This document shows, piece after piece, positions 2,789 to 49,690 of a DNA stretch of 64,000 nucleotides (its first letter is position 1; each line of letters starts with the position of its first letter). Where the stretch lies: the NCBI RefSeq assembly GCF_001679785.1, contig NZ_CP016286.1:372001-436000 (forward strand), written 5' to 3'. This DNA is from Rhizobium leguminosarum (lineage in GTDB: Bacteria; Pseudomonadota; Alphaproteobacteria; Rhizobiales; Rhizobiaceae). The position numbers and the translations under genes were made by a program. The notes under the pieces are model-generated. The model did no database searches. It was not told the DNA's origin and saw only the letters and a list, made by a program, of their open reading frames with translations.

Positions 2789-3259
2789 ATGGACACTCTC
2801 GAATGGCTGTCGGCTACCACGCCTGCGCTCGCGCTCCGGCGCTCCGGAACGCTCTACATGTTCGTCAACGCCGCCCATATCCTGGCGATCGGCCTTTTGG
2901 TCGGCGCCATCCTCCCGCTCGATCTGAGGCTCGCCGGCTTCTTCCGCAAGGTGCCGGTTGAGATCGTCGCGCCGTTTCTGTCACGCTCCGCCAGCGTCGG
3001 CCTCGCCGCGGCCATTGTCACCGGCTTCTGCCTCTTCAGCGTCAGGGCGGTCGAATATGCCGGCAATCCCGCCTTCCTTGCCAAGCTCGGGCTGATTGCC
3101 TTTGGATTGCTCAACGTGCTCGCGGTGCATACCGGGCAGGGCTGGCGAATGGCAACCACGGTCGGCATTCTACGCCCTGCCATAAGAGTTTCGGCGGCTC
3201 TGTCGGCGGCGACATGGATCGCCGCGCTGGTGGCGGGACGCTGGATCGGATTTCTATGA
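2789..3259 (+). CDS. Small integral membrane protein, DUF6644-like
   Basis: This 156-residue protein has about four hydrophobic segments (roughly residues 25-50, 65-85, 95-115 and 130-150) and few charged residues. It resembles the DUF6644 family that often follows DUF6152 genes; the family name is offered with moderate confidence. A GTG codon directly before the ATG at 2789 could also start translation. It follows the exported DUF6152-like gene by 25 bp. The pair may form an export or membrane-redox unit, but nothing in the sequence reveals a reaction. Confidence 0.7.
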   Translation: MDTLEWLSATTPALALRRSGTLYMFVNAAHILAIGLLVGAILPLDLRLAGFFRKVPVEIVAPFLSRSASVGLAAAIVTGFCLFSVRAVEYAGNPAFLAKLGLIAFGLLNVLAVHTGQGWRMATTVGILRPAIRVSAALSAATWIAALVAGRWIGFL

Positions 3260-3347
3260 TGTGATCGCTCCCGATTTTCTCAACCGCGGCGCATATGAAT
3301 TGCGTCAGGTGGAGGGGAGTTGAATATAACACGATGATCCATCATAT

Positions 3348-3367
3348 TGCATTGCAATTGCAACGCA
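3348..3367. promoter_or_regulatory. Palindromic operator upstream of the first toxin-antitoxin pair
   Basis: The 20-bp sequence TGCATTGCAATTGCAACGCA is a palindrome with one mismatched pair and lies just upstream of the antitoxin start at 3379. A second inverted repeat, ATGAT-CC-ATCAT, lies at 3334-3345. A possible -10 (TATAAC, 3325-3330) sits upstream. Type II antitoxins usually repress their own promoter through such palindromes, so this is the likely autoregulatory site. Confidence 0.6.
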
Positions 3368-3378
3368 TGAGGAACGTC

Positions 3379-3660
3379 ATGAAAACGGCATCGCTCCCGT
3401 CTCTTCGCGTGGATCCTGAATTGCGCGCTGCCGCCGAAAGCGTTCTCAAAGAAGGCGAGAGCTTGTCGTCGCTGATAGAGGACTCTCTTCGCCGCCAGAT
3501 CGATTATAGAAAGACCCAAGCGGAGTTCATCGCGCGGGGTCTGGTTGGCTTGGCTGACGCGCAGCGGACTGGTGTGTTTTACACAACGGACGACATTCAG
3601 GAGTTGATGCGCAAAAAGCTTGAAAAGGCGAAAGCCCGTAAAGCAGCACAGCAGAAATGA
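3379..3660 (+). CDS. Antitoxin of a type II toxin-antitoxin pair (YlcI/YnfO or ParD-like)
   Basis: The 93-residue protein has an N-terminal ribbon-helix-helix pattern (LPSLRVDPELRAAAESVL, then SLSSLIEDSLRRQI) that would bind DNA as a dimer. A basic C-terminal tail (KKLEKAKARKAAQQK) would wrap the toxin. The ATG at 3379 is favoured because a GAGG ribosome-binding site lies about 10 bases upstream and the domain begins here; in-frame ATGs at 3334 and 3367 lie inside the operator region. The stop overlaps the toxin start by four bases (ATGA), which is typical of translationally coupled pairs. Confidence 0.82.
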   Translation: MKTASLPSLRVDPELRAAAESVLKEGESLSSLIEDSLRRQIDYRKTQAEFIARGLVGLADAQRTGVFYTTDDIQELMRKKLEKAKARKAAQQK

Positions 3661-3956
3661 CCTTCGAGCTAAAGTATACCCAGACCTTCTATGAAGATCT
3701 GGACCGGCTCGCCGATTTTCTGATCGAACGTGATCCGGATTTGGCGGAACGTGCCCTCAGCGCCATCCAAAAAGCGCTGATGATACTCCAGGATTTCCCG
3801 CTTATGGCCAGACGCGCATCTGCGGATGATCCTTTGCTGCGCGAGCTCGTCGTACCATTCGGTTCAGCCGGACATGTCATTCTTTTCAAAGTGATGAATG
3901 AAACGAGCGTCATTGTCCTCGCCGTCCGTCACCAGCGCGAAGAAGATTACCACTGA
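3657..3956 (+). CDS. RelE/ParE-family toxin
   Basis: This 99-residue protein has the ParE/RelE fold pattern: an N-terminal strand (ELKYTQTFYEDLDRLADFL), two helices, then ELVVPFGSAGHVILFKV and a final strand VIVLAVRHQREEDYH. ParE members poison gyrase and RelE members cut ribosome-bound mRNA; the ending with RHQREEDY is more ParE-like, but the target cannot be read from the sequence. It is coupled to the upstream antitoxin by a four-base overlap. A degraded copy of the betA 3' end begins 6 bp after its stop codon. Confidence 0.85.
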   Translation: MTFELKYTQTFYEDLDRLADFLIERDPDLAERALSAIQKALMILQDFPLMARRASADDPLLRELVVPFGSAGHVILFKVMNETSVIVLAVRHQREEDYH

Positions 3957-3962
3957 CTATCT

Positions 3963-4022
3963 GTCGCTGACCACCCAGCGCAGATTGACCACGGCTCCTG
4001 GTTCGAGCGCGCCAGCGGTTTG
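3963..4022 (-). pseudogene. Degraded fragment of the betA 3' end (distal copy)
   Basis: About 60 bp resemble the last codons of the intact betA gene, whose 3' end is near 7885. On the minus strand the fragment still reads [10 protein letters not shown], the same ten residues found near the BetA C-terminus. A one-base deletion then shifts the frame and the last 15 bases are scrambled. It lies between the ParE-like toxin and HigB. It is shorter and more decayed than the second copy at 4894-5063, so it may be the older remnant. Confidence 0.75.
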
Positions 4023-4052
4023 CGCATCGTCCGCCGGTCTTCGATCTCTTCC

Positions 4053-4102
4053 ATAGCAACTTGCTATAATCGGATAGTTGCGCTAGATTGCAGCCATAGC
4101 AA
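4053..4102 (+). promoter_or_regulatory. higBA promoter with overlapping operator half-sites
   Basis: A perfect inverted repeat ATAGCAA-C-TTGCTAT at 4053-4067 overlaps a consensus -10 box TATAAT at 4065-4070. A further ATAGCAA half-site lies at 4096-4102, and TAG-TTGCG-CTA lies at 4075-4085. The arrangement suggests that the HigA antitoxin, alone or with HigB, represses the promoter. No good -35 hexamer is visible, so an activator or an extended promoter element may be needed. Confidence 0.6.
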
Positions 4103-4126
4103 AATGCGATACACGATTCCGGATTT

Positions 4127-4414
4127 ATGCACGTCATCACGCGGAAAAAAATCTGGGAGGCGAAAGACCGATGGCCTCAAACAGCCAATGCCCTGGATAC
4201 CTGGTATCGACTGATGAAGTCGTCGGAGCCGACAGACTTCGCCGACATGAAATCACTGTTTCCGGCAACGGACAAAGTCGGGCGGCACCACGTGTTCGAC
4301 ATTGGCGGCAACAAGCTGCGCTTGATCGCGGTGGTGCACTACAAATTTAGGAAGGTCTATATTCAGCGGATTATGGATCATGCCGAGTACGACAAAGGAG
4401 CATGGAAGGGTTAG
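4127..4414 (+). CDS. higB: HigB-family mRNA interferase toxin
   Basis: The 95-residue protein matches the HigB toxin family. It has the N-terminal MHVITRKKIWEAKDRWPQ, the DTWYRLMKSSEPTDFADMK block, and FDIGGNKLRLIAVVHYKFRKVYIQRIMDHAEYDK at the C-terminus, where the family's RNase residues lie. HigB enzymes cut mRNA on the ribosome. The gene order toxin-then-antitoxin is the reverse of most type II pairs and is diagnostic of higBA. The antitoxin starts 5 bp downstream. The module sits between two truncated betA 3' ends. Confidence 0.88.
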   Translation: MHVITRKKIWEAKDRWPQTANALDTWYRLMKSSEPTDFADMKSLFPATDKVGRHHVFDIGGNKLRLIAVVHYKFRKVYIQRIMDHAEYDKGAWKG

Positions 4415-4418
4415 GCCG

Positions 4419-4826
4419 ATGAGCGCACTTGTAAAACTGGTAAGCGAGCACTGGACGCATGTGGCTCCTCTTCTTGCCATGCCGGGCAATGAAGCTGAGT
4501 ATGATCATCTCGTGAAGCAACTTGACGAGATTCTCGCTGAAGTAGGCGACGATGAGGATCATCCTTTGGCGTTGCTTGCGTCTCGCATGGCGGACCTTGT
4601 TGAGGCCTATGACGAGCAAAACCGCCCAATGCCTCCGGTGACTGGCGCCGATGCACTCCGTTATGTCATGGAGGAGCGCAGCCTTGGCCAGTCCGAACTG
4701 CCGGAAGTGGGCGCTCAGTCCGTCGTGTCTGAGATTTTGAGCGGGAAGCGACAAATCAATGTTCGACAAGCCCGCGCTCTGAGTGAGCGATTTCTGATAC
4801 CGGCATCCGTATTTCTATCGCTCTGA
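4419..4826 (+). CDS. higA: HigA-family antitoxin with helix-turn-helix
   Basis: The 135-residue protein has an acidic N-terminal half (LDEILAEVGDDEDHPL) and a C-terminal helix-turn-helix of the XRE type (LRYVMEERSLGQSELPEVG, SVVSEILSGKRQI, ALSERFLIPASVFL). This is the longer HigA type found with HigB_toxin proteins. The ATG at 4419 follows GGAAGGG at 4404-4410; an in-frame start at 4380 would lie inside higB and is not preferred. It should neutralise HigB and repress the promoter upstream of higB. Confidence 0.87.
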   Translation: MSALVKLVSEHWTHVAPLLAMPGNEAEYDHLVKQLDEILAEVGDDEDHPLALLASRMADLVEAYDEQNRPMPPVTGADALRYVMEERSLGQSELPEVGAQSVVSEILSGKRQINVRQARALSERFLIPASVFLSL

Positions 4827-4893
4827 CGATAGACATTCCCGACGACCAGCGACAACCGGTCGGTGGCAGTGCTGCCCAATAGCTCTCTACGCT

Positions 4894-5063
4894 TCAGCGG
4901 TCGCTGACGGCCGCGCGCGGGTTGATCCACGGCTCCTGGTTTGAGCGCGCCAGCGGTTGTTTGCCGAGGATATGGTCGGCCGCCTTCTCTCCCGTCATGA
5001 TCGAGTGTCCGTTCAGGTTGCCATAGGTGACGTACGGGAAGATCGAACTGTCGGCGACGCGCA
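4894..5063 (-). pseudogene. Truncated betA 3' end (second copy)
   Basis: About 170 bp match the 3' end of the intact betA at 7885-8055, with about 14 base differences counted by eye. The reading frame is intact to a stop codon at 4894 and gives [18 protein letters not shown] at its start and [13 protein letters not shown] at its end. Only about four residues differ from BetA and most changes are silent. Similarity stops abruptly at about 5063, after which the sequence is unrelated. It has no start or N-terminal domain, so it cannot encode a working enzyme. Confidence 0.85.
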
Positions 5064-5149
5064 CCCTGTCGAAGGCTCGCGCGGCACGGCGGCTTCGACG
5101 TGGTTGTTCGAATCTATCCCCCGAATCCTCTGCCGCGACCATCCCACAG

Positions 5150-5689
5150 TCAGCCTCGCAGCATGCGACGAGCTTCGTAAGCTTCCAGGAACTCCGGAGA
5201 GGCGACGTCATCGGCCAGCGCGCGCAGCGCAGCCGCGGAAGGACCCAGCACCACCTCAACGCGCTGATTGGCATCAGCCCACAGGGCCAATGCCTCGTGC
5301 AGGCGTTGCTCGCCGGACGGCGTCAGCATTGCGTGCTTCGTCCGGCCATCATGTTCGTCAGGCATGAGCTCGACCAGTCCGTCCCGGACGAGCGGGCGAA
5401 GGGCGTGGGTCAAAGCGGAAATGCTGACGGCAAGGCGCTCAGCGAGCAATAGCAAGGTTGGCCATCCATGGCTGCCCTCGTGCAACGCTGCGATCTGGGT
5501 CAGAAGCCCGACCTGGGTGGCCTTCAGGCCGGTTGGCGCCACCGCCTCATCATAAATCTGCCCCAACCGCCGTGACGCGCGCCGGAGGGCGGTGTTTGTG
5601 CACACGAGTTCGGCCAGGAGTTCCGGCGGGCTCAGTCTGCCCGCGCGCAACTCCTCCCCTGGATCACCAATCGACAGTTTTTTGCCCAT
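5150..5689 (-). CDS. MarR-family transcriptional regulator
   Basis: The protein of 179 residues has a MarR winged helix-turn-helix: [62 protein letters not shown]. The wing motif DEHDGRTKH is typical of the family. Such proteins usually repress a divergent gene and are released by a ligand or oxidant. It is divergent from an SDR gene with an 89-bp shared promoter region that holds two similar palindromic sites, which suits autoregulation and control of the SDR and Old Yellow Enzyme genes. Confidence 0.88.
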
Positions 5690-5702
5690 CCCAATAAAAT
5701 AG

Positions 5703-5761
5703 TTGAGGGCTCATCCATTGACAAGACGACATCGCGACCATACGTAAACTTGAGCACTCAA
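5703..5761. promoter_or_regulatory. Shared MarR operator and promoter region
   Basis: TTGAGGGCTCA at 5703-5713 and the perfect palindrome TTGAGCACTCAA at 5750-5761 are two copies of one site. They flank a -35 box TTGACA at 5718-5723, whose possible -10 (TACGTA, 5741-5746) is 17 bases away and points to the SDR gene. A MarR dimer bound at both sites would block both divergent promoters. Confidence 0.6.
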
Positions 5762-5778
5762 CCAAATAGGATTTTGAC

Positions 5779-6579
5779 ATGTCTGCATCATCGCTCAAGC
5801 CCGTCGCCCTCGTCACCGGCGCCTCCGCTGGCATCGGCGCCATCTATGCGGCGCGCCTCGCTGAAAAGGGGTATGACCTCATCCTCGTCGCCCGGCGGGC
5901 CGATCGTCTGAAGGCGCTCTCGGACAAGCTCGGCGCTGCCCACGGCACGAAAGTCGAGGTCGTGGAAGCCGACCTGACGAAAGACGCCGACCTCACCCGC
6001 GTCGAAAAGGTGCTGAAGGACAATTCAGCGATCACGCTCCTCGTCAACAACGCCGGCAACTCGACCTTGGCTCCGGTCGCCAAGACCGCTGAGGAAGACG
6101 CGGCCGCGATGATCGCACTCAACGTCACTGCGCTCACGCGGCTGACACACGCCGTTCTGCCTGCATTCCTCAGCCGCAACCACGGCGCGATCATCAACGT
6201 CGCTTCGGTCTTGTCCTTTCATGCCCTGCCGATTAGCGCGATCTACAGCGGCACCAAGGGCTATGTGATGAACTTCAGCCGGGGTCTGCAGCAGGAATTG
6301 GCTGGGACCAATGTCCGCCTGCAACTCGTCATGCCGGCGGCCACGGCGACCGAACTCTGGGATTTGTCGGGCGTACCGCTGGCGTCGCTCAACCAGGCGA
6401 CCGTCATGACGTCGGAAAACCTGGTCGACGCCGCCCTGGCCGGTTTCGACAAGGGCGAAGATATCACGCTGCCATCCGTTGCCGACGCCAGTCTGTGGGA
6501 CAAGTTCGACCAAGCCCGATCCACACTGTTCGCCGCGACGCAGACCGGTGAACCTGCGCCCCGTTACCGCGCCGTCTAG
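5779..6579 (+). CDS. Short-chain dehydrogenase/reductase
   Basis: This 266-residue protein is a classical SDR. The NAD(P) motif TGASAGIG is at 13-20, NNAG at 90-93, and the catalytic Ser143, Tyr156 and Lys160 (YSGTK) are in place. The basic ARR at about 38-40 after the second strand suggests NADPH. The substrate is unknown. It is followed by an Old Yellow Enzyme gene and divergent from a MarR regulator, so the three genes probably form an electrophile or xenobiotic response module. They lie between a truncated and the complete betA 3' end. Confidence 0.87.
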   Translation: MSASSLKPVALVTGASAGIGAIYAARLAEKGYDLILVARRADRLKALSDKLGAAHGTKVEVVEADLTKDADLTRVEKVLKDNSAITLLVNNAGNSTLAPVAKTAEEDAAAMIALNVTALTRLTHAVLPAFLSRNHGAIINVASVLSFHALPISAIYSGTKGYVMNFSRGLQQELAGTNVRLQLVMPAATATELWDLSGVPLASLNQATVMTSENLVDAALAGFDKGEDITLPSVADASLWDKFDQARSTLFAATQTGEPAPRYRAV

Positions 6580-6672
6580 ACACCCGAAGGATCGAGCGCA
6601 CGGATTAACCCCTACGCCAGCGGCGTCGGCAGATCCGTGCGGTTGATTGATATTCATTTTAAGGAGATTCCA

Positions 6673-7770
6673 TTGCCCAGCTTGTTCGACCAATTCACGC
6701 TGAAAGGCGTCATCCTCCGAAACCGCATCGCGGTATCCCCTATGTGCCAATATTCCGCAACGGATGGCGTTCCGAACGACTGGCACGCCGTCCATCTCAC
6801 AAGCTTTGCGCGCGGTGGCGCTGGCCTCGTCAACGTCGAAGCCACGGCTGTCTCTCCGGAGGGGCGGATCACGCCGGGCTGCACCGGTCTTTGGAATGAT
6901 GTCCAGGCCGAGGCTTTTGAGCCGATCGTCGCCGGCATCGAAAAGGCGGGCGCGGTTGCAGGGATCCAGATCGGCCACGCCGGCCGCAAGGCCAGTGCAA
7001 ACCGTCCTTGGGAAGGCGACGATCATATCGCCGATAGCGATTCGCGCGGCTGGGAAACCATCGCACCGTCCGCCATCGCGTTCGGCGGCGGCTTGGCCAA
7101 GGTGCCGCGCGCCATGACGAAGGCCGACATAGATCGCGTCCGCGGCGATTTTGTTGCTGCAGCGATCCGCGCGCGCGACATCGGATTCCGCTGGCTCGTG
7201 CTGCATTTTGCTCACGGCTATCTCGGCCAGAGCTTCTTCTCGCCGCATTCGAACCAGCGCGACGACGAATATGGCGGCAGCGCCGATAACCGTGGACGCT
7301 TTCTTCTCGAGACGCTGGCAGCCGTTCGTGAGGTCTGGCCCGAGGATCGTCCGCTGACGGCTCGCTTCGGCGTCATCGAGTTTGACGGTCGCGACCAGGA
7401 AACCCTGCGGGACGCGATCAATCTAATCGGAAAATTCAAGGAGGCCGGCCTCGACTTCATCGACGTCAGCCTCGGCTTCTCAACCCCGGCCGCCAATATT
7501 CCCTGGGGTCCAGGGTTTATTGCGCCTTACGCCGATCAAGTCCGCAAGGCCACTGGCCTCCCCGGTGCCGCAAGTTGGAACATCACTCAGCCGGAGCAAG
7601 CGGACGAACTCATCCGAAGCGGGCAGCTTGACCTGGTTATGATCGGCAAGGCGATGCTCGCCAATCCGCATTGGCCGTACTCAGCGGCGCGCAAGCTCGG
7701 TGTCGAGCGTCCGTCCTGGACATTGCCTGCCCCTTACGCACATTGGCTCGCATCCTACCGCACTGCCTGA
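6673..7770 (+). CDS. NADH:flavin oxidoreductase, Old Yellow Enzyme family (YqjM-like)
   Basis: The enzyme would use FMN and NAD(P)H to reduce activated alkenes. Numbered from the proposed TTG start at 6673, Cys25 in SPMCQYSA matches the regulatory cysteine of YqjM/XenA-type enzymes. HAGRK, HFAHGYL and the SPHSNQRDDEYGGS segment mark the FMN and substrate site. The TTG is chosen because AAGGAG lies seven bases upstream and homologues start at this point (LFDQFTLKG); an in-frame ATG at 6637 has no ribosome-binding site. The length of 365 residues is normal. It is probably co-transcribed with the SDR gene. Confidence 0.88.
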   Translation: MPSLFDQFTLKGVILRNRIAVSPMCQYSATDGVPNDWHAVHLTSFARGGAGLVNVEATAVSPEGRITPGCTGLWNDVQAEAFEPIVAGIEKAGAVAGIQIGHAGRKASANRPWEGDDHIADSDSRGWETIAPSAIAFGGGLAKVPRAMTKADIDRVRGDFVAAAIRARDIGFRWLVLHFAHGYLGQSFFSPHSNQRDDEYGGSADNRGRFLLETLAAVREVWPEDRPLTARFGVIEFDGRDQETLRDAINLIGKFKEAGLDFIDVSLGFSTPAANIPWGPGFIAPYADQVRKATGLPGAASWNITQPEQADELIRSGQLDLVMIGKAMLANPHWPYSAARKLGVERPSWTLPAPYAHWLASYRTA

Positions 7771-7884
7771 GTGATCGGGGCTCTCGAACAGCGTTGAGGG
7801 CCCTTGTCTCTCGGCATAAAACAAATCACGAAGTCTTTCGGTCACCTACATAGACGGACAAAGTAACGTCGGACGGCTCGCTTC

Positions 7885-9534
7885 TTATCGATCGCTGACG
7901 GCCGCGCGTGGGTTGACCCATGGCTCCTGGTTCGAGCGTGCCAGCGGCTGTTTGCCGAGAATATGGTCGGCCGCCTTCTCGCCGGTCATGATCGATGGTC
8001 CGTTCAGGTTGCCATAGGTGACGTGAGGGAAGATCGAGCTGTCGGCGACGCGCAGGCCATCGATGCCGATCACCCGCGTTTGCGGATCGACCACCGCCAT
8101 CGGATCGTCCTTGGCGCCCATCCGGCAGGTGCCACAAGGGTGATAGGCGCTTTCCAGATGTTCGCGCAGGAAGGCGTCGATCTCCTCGTCGCTTTGCACG
8201 CTTTCCCCCGGCTGGATCTCCGGCCCGCGATAGTCGTTGAAGGCGCTCTGGCCGAAGATCTCGCGGGTGAGGCGCACGCAGTGGCGGAATTTCTCCCAAT
8301 CCTCCGGATGGCTCATATAGTTGAAGCGCAGCACCGGATCGGCCTTGGGGTCGGCCGAGCGCAAGCTCACGCTGCCGCGCGATTTCGACAGGTTATAGCC
8401 GACATGAACCTGGAAGCCGTGGCTTTTCGCCGCCGCCTTGCCGTCATAGCTGATCGCCACGGGCAGGAAATGATACTGGATGTCAGGCTGCTTCAGCCCC
8501 GGCGCCGAGCGCAGGAAGGCGCAGGCTTCGAACTGGTTGGAGGCGCCGAGCCCGCCGCGCGAGAGCAGCCATTGCGCGCCCGCCACCCCCTGCCAGAACC
8601 ACGGCAGCCAGGAATAGAGCGACACCGGCTTGGTGCTGACCTGCTGGAAGTAGAATTCCATATGGTCCTGCAGGTTGGCGCCGACACCCGGCCGGTCTGC
8701 CTTGACCGCAATGCCCATGTCCTGCAGATGTTGGCCCGGACCGATGCCCGACAGCATCAAGAGCTTCGGCGAGTTGAAGGAGGAGGCCGAGACGATCACC
8801 TCGCGGTTCGCCTTCACCATCTCTATTCTGCCGTTGCGCTCGATCTCGACGCCGGTCGCCCGTCCGCCCTCGATCACGATCTTGCGGGCGAAGCCATAGA
8901 TGATCCCGACATTCTGCCGCTTCAGCGCCGGTCTCAGATAGGCATTGGCAGCAGACCAGCGGCGGCCGCCGAAGATCGTCTGCTCCATCAGCCCGAAGCC
9001 TTCCTGCTTGCTGCCGTTATAATCTTCCGTCGTCTCGAAACCCGCCTGTTTTCCGGCCTCGACGAAGGCTTTGAAGAGCGGATTGGTGAAACCGCCGCGC
9101 TGGACATGCAGCGGCCCATCGGTGCCGCGCCAACCTTCCTCGCCGCCATGCGAATGTTCCATCCGCTTGTAATAGGGAAGCACGTCGGCATAGGCCCAGC
9201 CGCTGGCGCCGAGCTCCTCCCAGCGGTTGAAGTCCTCGGCATGGCCGCGCACATAGACCATGCCGTTGATTGAGGAGGAGCCGCCGATCACCTTGCCGCG
9301 CGGCGCGGTGATACGCCGGTTGTTGAGGTTCGCCTCCGGCTCGGACAGATAACCCCAGTTATATCGCTTCATGCTCATCGGCCAGGCAAGCGCGGCCGGC
9401 ATCTGGATGAACGGCCCAAAATCGCTGCCGCCCGCCTCGACGACGATGACGCTGTTCTTGCCGTCTTCCGACAAGCGGTAGGCGAGGGCGGAGCCGGCCG
9501 AGCCGGAGCCGATGATGACGAAATCTGCTTGCAT
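7885..9534 (-). CDS. betA: Choline dehydrogenase
   Basis: BetA is an FAD-dependent GMC oxidoreductase that oxidises choline to betaine aldehyde at the inner membrane. The protein of 549 residues begins with the FAD motif [15 protein letters not shown], has [14 protein letters not shown], and carries the catalytic HPCGTCRMG near residue 465. The ATG at 9534 is used because the Rossmann motif starts there; the longer open frame upstream is part of a repeat element. It is the last gene of betI-betB-betA. Its final 170 bp are copied, truncated, at 4894-5063, and about 60 bp again at 3963-4022. Confidence 0.94.
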
Positions 9535-11269: not shown

Positions 11270-11410
11270 CCCTCATTCCTGTGCTCGTCACAGGAATCCC
11301 GCCACCGCGCGTCCGCGCGGTGAATGACTCTTTATTTTGGAAAATATTCCCTCTCGTGCCCAAGGACTTGGGCGCACTGGATTCCTGTGACAAGCACAGG
11401 AATGAGGGAG
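11270..11410. repeat. Mosaic repeat with terminal inverted repeats (copy 1)
   Basis: The element begins CCTCATTCCTGTG and ends CACAGGAATGAGGG, an inverted pair. Just inside are TCACAGGAATCC and its partner GGATTCCTGTGA, and GCGCGTCCGCGC forms a central hairpin. A second copy at 34936-35093 shares the ends, the CCAAGGACTTGG core and the GCCACCGCGCGTC segment. It occupies the betI-betB gap. No open frame is inside, so it would be a non-autonomous element. Confidence 0.8.
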
Positions 11411-23593: not shown

Positions 23594-23663
23594 GCGGATT
23601 GCTCACCCGCGCGCCTCTACATTGCCCTTCGCTTGCGCTCAGGCCATTCGCGGCTTTGCCGCT

Positions 23664-23819
23664 CACCCCCTCAACCGACCCTTCGGGCCACCTTCTCCCC
23701 GCTGGGGAGAAGAGGGAGCAAGCCGATTGCCCTCGTTTCAACAGACGCTTGGAAGTGAGGCGCTGCCACGAATCTCTTCTCCCCAGCGGGGAGAAGGTGC
23801 CGGCAGGCGGTTGAGGGGC
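23664..23819. repeat. RIME-like palindromic repeat
   Basis: The ends CCCCTCAACCG and CGGTTGAGGGG are inverted copies. Inside are CCTTCTCCCCGCTGGGGAGA and TCTTCTCCCCAGCGGGGAGA, each a hairpin, and the two are also inverted relative to each other. It fills most of the 364-bp gap between the DUF4406 gene and a GST gene. The flanks TTGCCCTTCGCTTGCGCTC (near 23621) and TTGCCCTTCGCTCGCGCTC (near 23838) form a direct repeat around it. Confidence 0.75.
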
Positions 23820-23957
23820 TGCACGGCACACCATTCATTGCCCTTCGCTCGCGCTCAACGCACCTCACTTGTCCCGATGGACGTCAAAACCCAATCTCAC
23901 CAGTTCCGACGCGCGCACCGCTGCGCTATAACCCTTGCCGAAAGGGAGTCGAAACCA

Positions 23958-34849: not shown

Positions 34850-34935
34850 GCGTGGAGTTTGTTGTTGAAAACCCCTCCCCAACCCCTCCCCACAAGGGGG
34901 AGGGGCTTTCGTGCCGCGCCCGTCGCATTTCTCGC

Positions 34936-35093
34936 TCCCTCATTCCTGTGCTTGTCACAGGAATCCAGCCACCGCGCGTCGGCGCGGTGAAAGACTCATG
35001 CAACGGAAAAGAGCCTCCCGCGTCCAAGGACTTGGACGCACTGGATTCCTGTGACATCCCTCGGGTCAAGCCCGAGGACAGGAATGAGGGAGC
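34936..35093. repeat. Mosaic repeat with 16-bp terminal inverted repeats (copy 2)
   Basis: GCTCCCTCATTCCTGT at the left end and ACAGGAATGAGGGAGC at the right end are perfect 16-bp inverted repeats. The interior shares the CACAGGAATCC, GCCACCGCGCGTC, CCAAGGACTTGG and GGATTCCTGTGAC blocks with copy 1 at 11270-11410. This copy also holds CCTCGGGTCAAGCCCGAGG, the hairpin of another repeat class, inserted near its right end. A further palindrome, CCCCTCCCC facing GGGGAGGGG, lies just upstream at about 34867-34909. Confidence 0.82.
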
Positions 35094-37898: not shown

Positions 37899-38705
37899 AT
37901 GAATTTTCTGCGCCGGGTCTTCCCGCTTGCCGGGCTCGTGATTGCGGTTGCGTCGCTGAGCGGCTGCAACATCCTCATTCCCGATGTCGCCGCTGATTCG
38001 CCCGCCCGCTTCGTCCAGGAGACCTCGCCGGTCTTCTATCAGCCACCCGGCGTCGATCCGCGCCGGGTGCGGCCGATCCCCGATCAGCCGGTGCCGCAGA
38101 CGCGCGAGCTCTACAAGACCCAGTTCCACCAGACCTATGGCCTGCCGGTCACCAATCCCGTGCATATGGCGATGTATGGCCAGCTGCGTGACGAGGATTT
38201 CACCCTGCCGGCGATCCCGGTCAGCCGCGTACAGCCGCAGTTCCTGCGCCAGGAGGTCGATTATCAGACGACCGAGCGTCCCGGCACCGTGGTCATCGAT
38301 ACCAAGGCGCATTTCCTCTATTTCGTCGAGGGCAACGGCAAGGCGATGCGCTACGGCGTCGGCCTCGGCCGCGACGGTTACGCCTGGTCGGGCCGCGGCG
38401 TCATCCAGTGGAAGCAGAAATGGCCGCGCTGGACGCCGTCGGTCGAAATGGTCTCGCGCCAGCCTGAGGTTCGCCCCTTCGGGGCGGAGAATGGCGGCAT
38501 GAATCCGGGGCTGATGAACCCGCTCGGCGCCCGCGCCATGTATATCTTCAAGGACGGGCAGGATACGCTCTACCGTGTCCACGGCACACCCGATTGGCAG
38601 TCGATCGGCAAGGCCACCTCGTCGGGCTGCGTGCGCATGCTGAACCAGGACGTCGTCGATCTCTACGACCGCCTTCCTGCCAAGGCCGAGATCGTTGTGA
38701 TGTAG
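37899..38705 (+). CDS. L,D-transpeptidase (YkuD family), lipoprotein
   Basis: The 268-residue protein has a lipoprotein signal with lipobox LSGC (about residues 22-25), so it is probably anchored in an outer or inner membrane leaflet facing the periplasm. The YkuD domain ends with HGTPDWQSIG and SSGCVRM, the catalytic histidine and cysteine (about residue 244). It would make 3-3 peptidoglycan cross-links or attach proteins. The next gene is a paralogue. The start at 37899 follows AAGGGTGG. Confidence 0.9.
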   Translation: MNFLRRVFPLAGLVIAVASLSGCNILIPDVAADSPARFVQETSPVFYQPPGVDPRRVRPIPDQPVPQTRELYKTQFHQTYGLPVTNPVHMAMYGQLRDEDFTLPAIPVSRVQPQFLRQEVDYQTTERPGTVVIDTKAHFLYFVEGNGKAMRYGVGLGRDGYAWSGRGVIQWKQKWPRWTPSVEMVSRQPEVRPFGAENGGMNPGLMNPLGARAMYIFKDGQDTLYRVHGTPDWQSIGKATSSGCVRMLNQDVVDLYDRLPAKAEIVVM

Positions 38706-38882: not shown

Positions 38883-39617
38883 ATGAGCTTCGATAGACAT
38901 CTTTCCCGCCGCAGCTTTCTTTCCTTTTCGGCGTTGACCGCAGCCTCCGCGCTCGCCGGCTGCGCCTCCTCAGCCAACACCGTGACATCAGGCGATACGA
39001 CGATCACTTACCGTTCGCCCATGCGCCTGTTCCAGTCCCCGGGTGCGTCGAGCGTGCCGAGTGGGGCCGAGCTTGCCGTGATGTATGGCCCCATCGAAGA
39101 CGGCGGCTTTCTCATTCCAGCCGTTCCCTACGAGCAGATCGATCCGCGCTATTATCGCCAGCGCGTCGTCGATCCCACCGGCCAGCCCCCCGGCACCATT
39201 GTTGTCGATACGCCGTCGCGTTTCCTCTATCTCGTCCAGGGCGACGGCATGGCGATGCGTTACGGCGTCGGCATCGGCCGCGAGGGTTTCGCCTGGCAGG
39301 GGTCGGGCGTCATCCAGTGGCGTCAGAGATGGCCGCGCTGGAAGCCGCCGAACGAGATGGTCGCCCGCCAGCCCGAACTCGTCAAATATTCGATCGAGAA
39401 CGGCGGCATGGAGCCGGGTCTGAAGAACCCGCTCGGCGCCCGCGCACTCTATATCTTCTCGAATGGAGAGGACACGCTCTATCGCCTGCACGGAAATCCC
39501 GATTGGCGCTCGATCGGCAAGGCCGTCTCGTCAGGCTGCGTGCGGCTGATGAACCAGGATATCATCGATCTCTACGACCGTGTTCCGACCAAGGCGCCGA
39601 TCGTCGTCTGGCAGTAA
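38883..39617 (+). CDS. L,D-transpeptidase (YkuD family), Tat-exported lipoprotein
   Basis: This protein of 244 residues is a paralogue of the preceding one. It has a twin-arginine signal (LSRRSFLSFSALTAASALAGC) that ends in a lipobox, so it seems to be a Tat-dependent lipoprotein, in contrast to its neighbour. The catalytic HGNPDWRSIG and SSGCVRL are intact. The two enzymes are tandem, with a 177-bp gap, so each probably has its own promoter. A 13-bp palindrome CCGGTTTAACCGG lies at 38826-38838 in that gap. Confidence 0.9.
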   Translation: MSFDRHLSRRSFLSFSALTAASALAGCASSANTVTSGDTTITYRSPMRLFQSPGASSVPSGAELAVMYGPIEDGGFLIPAVPYEQIDPRYYRQRVVDPTGQPPGTIVVDTPSRFLYLVQGDGMAMRYGVGIGREGFAWQGSGVIQWRQRWPRWKPPNEMVARQPELVKYSIENGGMEPGLKNPLGARALYIFSNGEDTLYRLHGNPDWRSIGKAVSSGCVRLMNQDIIDLYDRVPTKAPIVVWQ

Positions 39618-45351: not shown

Positions 45352-45383
45352 GTTTGGGAGCGACGTTGGCGGTGTGCCGTGAG

Positions 45384-45535
45384 GCCCCCTCATCCGGCTG
45401 CCGCCACCTTCTCCCCGAGGGGAGAAGAGATATGCCGCTGCGTCTCGATTCCCTCTTCTCCCCTCGGGGGTCCGAAGGACGGGTCGAGACCAGTGGCTCG
45501 GCCCCGGCCAGTGCCCGTAGGGCGGATGAGGGGGC
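45384..45535. repeat. RIME-like repeat with 13-bp terminal inverted repeats
   Basis: GCCCCCTCATCCG at 45384-45396 and CGGATGAGGGGGC at 45523-45535 are perfect inverted ends. Inside, CTTCTCCCCGAGGGGAGAAG and CTCTTCTCCCCTCGGGG form hairpins. It separates the convergent VOC and ABC-F genes. Confidence 0.78.
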
Positions 45536-49376: not shown

Positions 49377-49539
49377 GGATATGGATGTCCCCGTTGGCAA
49401 GGCGAACTGGCGTTGCGATCGGGTTGAAATCCATTGCGGCACACATCCTGTTGAAATGGTCGATGGCAGGTAATTTAGGGAATAAGGGCTGAAGGTTCAA
49501 GGCGAGGCAGCCAATCGGGCTGCAGGCAGTGATCCTGCT

Positions 49540-49690
49540 CCCTTCTTCTCCCCAGCGGGGAGAAGGTGGCCCGAAGGGTCGGATGAGGGGGCCACACGGT
49601 ACTCCGTTACGGCCTTTCACTGGCCGCTCAAGGCGTTCGTCGCTGGCGCTTCTCACCCCCTTATCTGCCTGCCGGCGTCTTCTCCCCGAG
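49540..49690. repeat. RIME-like repeat fragments
   Basis: CCTTCTTCTCCCCAGCGGGGAGAAGG forms a hairpin near 49541, followed by GGATGAGGGGGCC. Near the other end CACCCCCTTATCTGCCTGCCGG and CTTCTCCCCGAG appear. The halves resemble the RIME-like elements at 9590 and 23664 but the ends do not match perfectly, so this copy looks rearranged. Confidence 0.6.

Follow-up and report, generated by a model that had tools for sequence, protein, structure and literature searches.

The 3ʹ end of betA, the choline dehydrogenase gene, was found three times in a 64,000-nt stretch of Rhizobium leguminosarum DNA (positions 372001-436000 of contig NZ_CP016286.1, here C1, of an 8.57-Mb genome, here G000); this whole stretch is called the window. 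One copy ends the intact gene. The other two, tail2 and tail3, are displaced ends, each lying beyond a gene module. In the direction of betA, the order is betA, OYE-SDR-MarR, tail2, higA-higB, tail3, parE-parD, DUF6644, DUF6152, rrf2, and cysH, where SDR stands for short-chain dehydrogenase (Table 1). Because the window has no tyrosine integrase match, the two junctions differ, and the cargoes tend to come with specific betA ends, we propose with moderate confidence that recombination anchored in betA and non-homologous at its far end joined cargo twice in succession, keeping the old betA end each time.

Table 1. Features of the window between betA and DUF6644, listed in the direction of betA.
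Feature	Coordinates	Strand	Basis or remark
betA choline dehydrogenase, intact; 3ʹ end is the anchor	7885..9534	-	NCBIfam TIGR01810, 949 bits against a cut-off of 732
betA-OYE spacer	7771..7884	.	GAAGCGAG lies right behind the betA stop
OYE-family flavin oxidoreductase, latest cargo	6673..7770	+	Pfam PF00724
Short-chain dehydrogenase (SDR), latest cargo	5779..6579	+	Pfam PF00106
MarR-type regulator, latest cargo	5150..5689	-	weak MarR match, 24.0 bits (cut-off 24.6); HTH_27, 26.2 (22.2)
Cargo-side spacer up to the tail2 junction	5064..5149	.	in 6 of 148 genomes; shared junction aligned
tail2, displaced betA 3ʹ end, from about -170 to the stop, from a betA-higBA allele	4894..5063	-	
HigA-type antitoxin	4419..4826	+	named by position; no Pfam or NCBIfam match at 1e-3
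HigB toxin	4127..4414	+	Pfam PF09907
higB-distal flank up to the tail3 junction	4024..4126	.	
tail3, oldest displaced betA 3ʹ end, from about -71 to the stop, flush with parE	3957..4023	-	
ParE toxin, neighbour of betA before any displacement	3657..3956	+	Pfam PF05016
ParD-like antitoxin	3379..3660	+	NCBIfam NF041551, YlcI/YnfO N-terminal domain; position
DUF6644 gene, frequent right border of the hotspot	2789..3259	+	Pfam PF20349

The locus was compared across 148 genomes of the genus, one per species and the window's own included; 50 were oriented and analysed first, and 98 more were added. betA was matched in all 148 and preceded the cargo in every one, and its frame, which ends in the window with the stop at 7885 on the minus strand, was open over at least 1600 nt in all 50 genomes of the first set. 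Among 80 named loci, the betA protein of Rhizobium leguminosarum Tri-43 and those of several strains of the same group were 97% identical to that of the window, and the end of the window gene was matched most closely in G035 (97%).

When positions 7401-8200 were compared with the window by BLASTN, matches were obtained at 4890-5063 (90% identity, E = 2e-63) and at 3958-4018 (81%, E = 1e-9), both on the betA strand. This result confirmed a preliminary description of the DNA, in which the betA end was said to recur twice on that strand. Elsewhere in the whole genome, the betA end had three weak matches (69-88%, E = 3e-5 to 1e-4). The names higBA and MarR-SDR-OYE given to the modules in that description were correct, and a third module beyond the distal tail, parDE (3379-3956), had been left unnamed there. 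The displaced stops, both on the minus strand, are TGA at 4894-4896 in tail2 and TAG at 3957-3959 in tail3. The terminal codons are CGATAA in the intact gene, CGCTGA in tail2, and AGATAG in tail3. Because these are three spellings of R-stop, the three copies look like homologous betA ends from different lineages, not one end that was duplicated.

The stop of tail3 directly abuts the stop of parE at 3954-3956. ParE was the first probe match within 300 bp of the betA stop in 46 of the 148 genomes, and in 15 of these 46 the match started 4 nt from the betA stop, its own stop codon uncounted, so that the two stops touch; the spacing was 16 nt in another 19. Since the tail3 stop touches the parE stop as in these uninterrupted relatives, tail3 is the old betA end beside its old neighbour. 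The strong match of tail3 starts at -63 from the stop, and five further bases together with the ungapped copy in G014 put the junction at about -71. Relative to betA, 3 nt are missing from tail3 in both G000 and G028, and a further 1 nt is missing in G000. The higBA-tail3 junction lies at the identical place in G000, G028, and G014. The latter two genomes carry betA-higBA-tail3-parDE and are free of OYE, indicating that the higBA step was independent of OYE and came first in the history of the window. These intermediates, with the empty sites and partial stacks of other relatives, bear out the earlier claim of stepwise displacement in which the distal tail is the older. Compared by eye at this join, betA near -71 and the flank found in genomes with betA-higBA-DUF6644 share at most a few nucleotides.

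Tail2 and higBA were collinear, over an unbroken 1,030 bp at 83.6% identity, with the intact betA-higBA of Rhizobium sp. R635 (L025). Tail2 is therefore the end of a betA-higBA allele that was pushed aside by OYE-SDR-MarR, which fits the proposal of the preliminary description that the second copy diverged as in another strain. Compared with the betA of the window itself, tail2 differed at 17 of 168 nt, of which 13 were silent and 4 fell in replacement codons (H to Y, P to H, and V to I), and the frame was kept. Frame-breaking gaps were present in tail2 in each of G035, G011, and G030 and in none of the window copy; such gaps would be expected of unselected sequence. The junction of OYE cargo and tail2, at about -170, is common to G000, G035, G011, and G030, and stubs of about 20 nt of it remain before DUF6644 in G034 (by eye only) and G070. 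The sequence GAAGCGAG was present in 6 of the 148 genomes, all of them OYE carriers. In G006, the seventh genome with OYE, this sequence was absent, and OYE follows betA with neither spacer nor tail.

The ends of betA also varied with the cargo. The gene ends in D-R-stop in 147 of 148 genomes. With relatedness uncorrected, the spelling CGATAA was found in 6 of 7 genomes in which OYE comes first (within 300 bp behind betA) versus 5 of 141 others, and CGCTGA in 4 of 7 genomes in which HigA comes first versus 6 of 141 others. Judged from these sequences, each cargo tends to be accompanied by its own betA end.

The interval between betA and rrf2 is a hotspot across the 148 genomes, with empty sites, sites with a single cargo, and partial stacks. 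The arrangements differ among relatives, and the tails match betA best, so that neither outcome named in the preliminary description as refuting its reading was observed. The distance between the two genes ranged from 20 to 6,806 bp, with a median of 2,117, in 147 genomes, the contig ending first in the other one. Among the 50 oriented genomes, parDE was flush with betA in G075, G031, G001, G037, G083, G003, G068, and G057; the order betA-OYE-tail2-higBA without parDE was found in G011 and G030, and betA-OYE-tail2-parDE in G035; both tails were stacked in the window. higBA or OYE also stood behind betA free of any tail (G010, G079, and G006).

Displaced betA ends were scanned for at an E threshold of 0.01 and found in 8 of 148 genomes. 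They were strong in the window (two tails), G035, G011, G030, G028, and G014. The 19-nt stub of G070 (E = 0.009) was not significant alone and was accepted on its position and alignment, and that of G034 was seen by eye. All tails trace to two founding junctions. As background of the scan, 10 of 17 genomes with plus-strand matches matched only inner betA far downstream (G079 at E = 2e-5), and minus-strand matches occurred in 11 genomes. Among the 80 named loci, a tail was present only in L007, taken as G035. Because no tail was detected at this threshold in the remaining 140 genomes though the distance from betA to rrf2 varies widely, the tails are a rare by-product of a busy hotspot. On the other side of the interval, no displaced ends of DUF6644 or Rrf2 were found in the 50 genomes at E 1e-4. 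For DUF6152, matches in 22 genomes were rejected as displaced ends: all were best from the truncated query gene of G068 and were read as spacer matches.

Tandem duplication of the betA end, with the modules captured later between the copies, would likewise leave direct repeats on the same strand. In this survey, however, each displaced end was separated from betA by a cargo (positions +866 and beyond), none of the 148 genomes was found to have a bare tandem tail, and cargo also occurred behind betA without tails. We give this order of events little credence.

Different cargoes have repeatedly used the same gene end, a pattern that would also be produced by a site-specific integrase, an integron-like system, or a transposon acting at the betA 3ʹ end. 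Of the 42 matches to the tyrosine integrase family (PF00589) in the genome, none fell in the window, and the nearest one listed on the same contig was about 0.9 Mb away in contig coordinates; serine recombinases and transposases were not profile-searched. Inspection of the open reading frame list revealed no recognised gene beyond the modules between betA and DUF6644. The junctions, moreover, are unequal (about -71 and about -170) and have no fixed core at both ends, and a tail was undetectable in 140 of 148 genomes. Because no tyrosine integrase match fell in the window and the junctions are unequal, site-specific integration was set aside, and we regard a dedicated system of this kind as scarcely credible. 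The earlier remark that no integrase is present thus holds for tyrosine integrases in the window. The accompanying idea of discrete elements that insert and rebuild the gene end, in the manner of an integrative element, was not supported: the junctions differ, higBA and OYE occur tail-free behind betA, and the interval was apparently exchanged through its flanks.

Under the betA-anchored reading, the ancestral state would be betA-parDE-DUF6644. In the first event, DNA with a betA 3ʹ end and higBA would have recombined with the resident betA by homology, while its far end joined that gene without homology about 71 nt before the stop, giving betA-higBA-tail3-parDE. In the second, DNA with a betA end and OYE-SDR-MarR would have joined a betA-higBA allele at about -170, giving the arrangement of the window. 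The displaced tails would afterwards decay as pieces of pseudogene that can be deleted or reused as homology for recombination. We infer that homologous pairing in betA served as the anchor, that the far end was joined illegitimately, and that no dedicated recombinase took part. The intact betA end might derive from the donor, as the association of end codons with cargo would suggest. Over the last 200 nt of betA in G028, mean similarity to the leguminosarum group falls and that to G014 rises, with 5 of 6 unusual sites shared with G014; this suggests a switch towards G014 near -150 and decides little. The G+C content was 54% in higBA and 54% in parDE; since that of OYE-SDR-MarR fell within the range of betA and the core genes (62-66%), the latest cargo is not compositionally distinct.

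Several observations weigh against this reading. Only two founding junctions carry it, and the unbroken donor side of the OYE-tail2 junction was found in no genome searched. In each of the last four segments of the G028 betA profile, the best genome of the leguminosarum group was at least as similar as G014, and G014 shows similar rises elsewhere in betA. In G070, a secondary transfer, the foreign tract reaches back into betA by only about 12 nt from the stop. The order in G035 could have arisen by entry into a genome carrying parDE, by the loss of higBA, or by its later arrival, the scores given below hardly separating the first two. Finally, tail3 and betA of G028 show no difference over -63 to -8 (56 nt), as would also be expected from self-duplication.

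This last identity favours insertion with a long target duplication, or integration by a single crossover of a circle carrying a 3ʹ piece of betA with cargo, in which case the insertion would itself have copied the target gene to produce the tail. The cargo does lie between direct repeats of about 70 and about 170 nt, and a precedent is mentioned for restriction-modification genes of Helicobacter (PMC3154945). However, the intact and displaced ends differ in synonymous end codons and in their flanks, 17 of the 168 nt of tail2 depart from the betA of the window, tail2 runs directly into higBA like a betA-higBA allele, and the repeat lengths are unequal between the two events. We consider such duplication unlikely, though likelier than the other alternatives to betA-anchored recombination.

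Later traffic through the hotspot could also be followed. OYE and SDR of G070 were 94-97% identical to those of G000, G035, G011, G030, and G034, whereas betA was only 90-92% identical, indicating that the cargo crossed species; MarR was more variable (87.5-96% against the other OYE genomes of the tail2 type). DUF6644 was 96.8% and Rrf2 90.3% identical between G070 and G034, suggesting a right-hand crossover beyond DUF6644. The interval between betA and rrf2 thus appears to have been exchanged between species via its flanks. G035 combines a 5ʹ junction of the OYE-stack type with a 3ʹ end and flank of the betA-parDE type, and the 3ʹ part of its tail matched betA of G083 at 81 of 90 positions versus 79 of 90 for tail3 of G028. 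If the OYE junction arose once, these sequences would require that a crossover fell within a displaced tail at least once.

The modules were also observed in other states and at other sites. Beside betA, parE was split in G109, a remnant of higA was left in G036, and higA lacked higB in G067 and G112, suggesting toxin-antitoxin pairs that decay in place. Away from betA, higBA copies at L197 6001-6786 (G035), L195, L196, and L087 (on a plasmid of Rhizobium sp. T1470) have about 780 bp of core sequence in common with the window at 88-89% identity, which suggests an independently moving unit. OYE-SDR-MarR occurs elsewhere at about 84-85% identity in L199, L200, and L201 (G010, G083, and G144), and in G010 and G083 the homology spans from the MarR stop to just beyond the OYE stop. 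Eight loci with higBA or OYE copies elsewhere were checked for repeats at E 1e-4. At L198 5594-6596 (G066), a direct repeat of 408 bp (82%) is flush with a truncated higBA copy and is perhaps a similar scar at another site. Two repeats, 104 and 47 nt long, occur in L197 without contact with higBA, and the other six loci had none at this threshold. No plasmid donor of the whole arrangement was found by megablast of 3250-8300 against plasmids: each of the 10 records matched covered 80% of the query or less. Three Rhizobium records matched the higBA stretch, four Burkholderia records and one Pseudomonas record matched the OYE part, and one record each of Shinella and Azospirillum matched betA.

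Other repeats in the window were noted apart from the betA locus. A palindromic intergenic repeat, with 30-nt arms that are 97% complementary, occurs at least twice (11270-11408 and 34933-35056) and appears to resemble the intergenic mosaic elements of rhizobia. Members of a second family, some of them palindromic, are 78-96% alike and lie in both orientations (23657-23861, 45370-45452, and 49536-49634). A direct repeat of 421 nt with 79% identity, in copies 0.9 kb apart (38280-38698 and 39189-39607), possibly represents two related neighbouring genes.

No account of this betA site surfaced in a coarse literature search. For effector-immunity modules of the type VI secretion system in Vibrio cholerae, sequential displacement by homology-facilitated illegitimate recombination was proposed (Kirchberger 2017, PMC5361080). 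There, as here, modules join a conserved anchor, old 3ʹ ends and genes are shifted back in order, the order was rebuilt from simpler intermediates, and there was no evidence of an integrase. In Vibrio, however, the anchor belongs to the effector module, of which it is the upstream part, and immunity genes are retained, whereas the betA locus has an unrelated housekeeping gene as its anchor and toxin-antitoxin and redox-type modules as its cargo. Hotspots that lack mobile elements are common, and many show recombination at the core genes beside them (Oliveira 2017, PMC5635113). The betA locus resembles them in its variable interval between conserved genes, the lack of a tyrosine integrase, and the signs of exchange through the flanks. 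Double homologous crossover of that type leaves no displaced gene end, whereas a far join outside homology would be required for the two tails. The insertions with long target duplication mentioned for Helicobacter restriction-modification genes likewise place addiction-type modules between long direct target repeats (PMC3154945); unlike those, the betA repeats look like different alleles rather than copies of one. Homology-facilitated illegitimate recombination, with one homologous and one illegitimate end, was shown experimentally in other bacteria (PMC2884548; see also PMC3240628); at betA, its likeness is drawn from the junctions.

The locus is therefore new as an instance, and the kind of recombination scar is already known; it is not a new element. 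The anchor of the betA locus is unusual, and its intermediates form a good series. It is also conceivable, though doubtful, that a betA end, cargo, and tail together form a self-sufficient cassette able to enter or leave any naive betA by RecA recombination without an integrase. If this were true, toxin-antitoxin and stress modules would spread by the homology of one gene alone. Since exchange between flanking genes is scarless, the first entry of modules into hotspots is difficult to observe. The betA tails give the order of two entries, with intermediates still present in other genomes. The locus thus offers a natural setting in which to study how toxin-antitoxin modules enter chromosomes and whether displaced tails are reused as homology.

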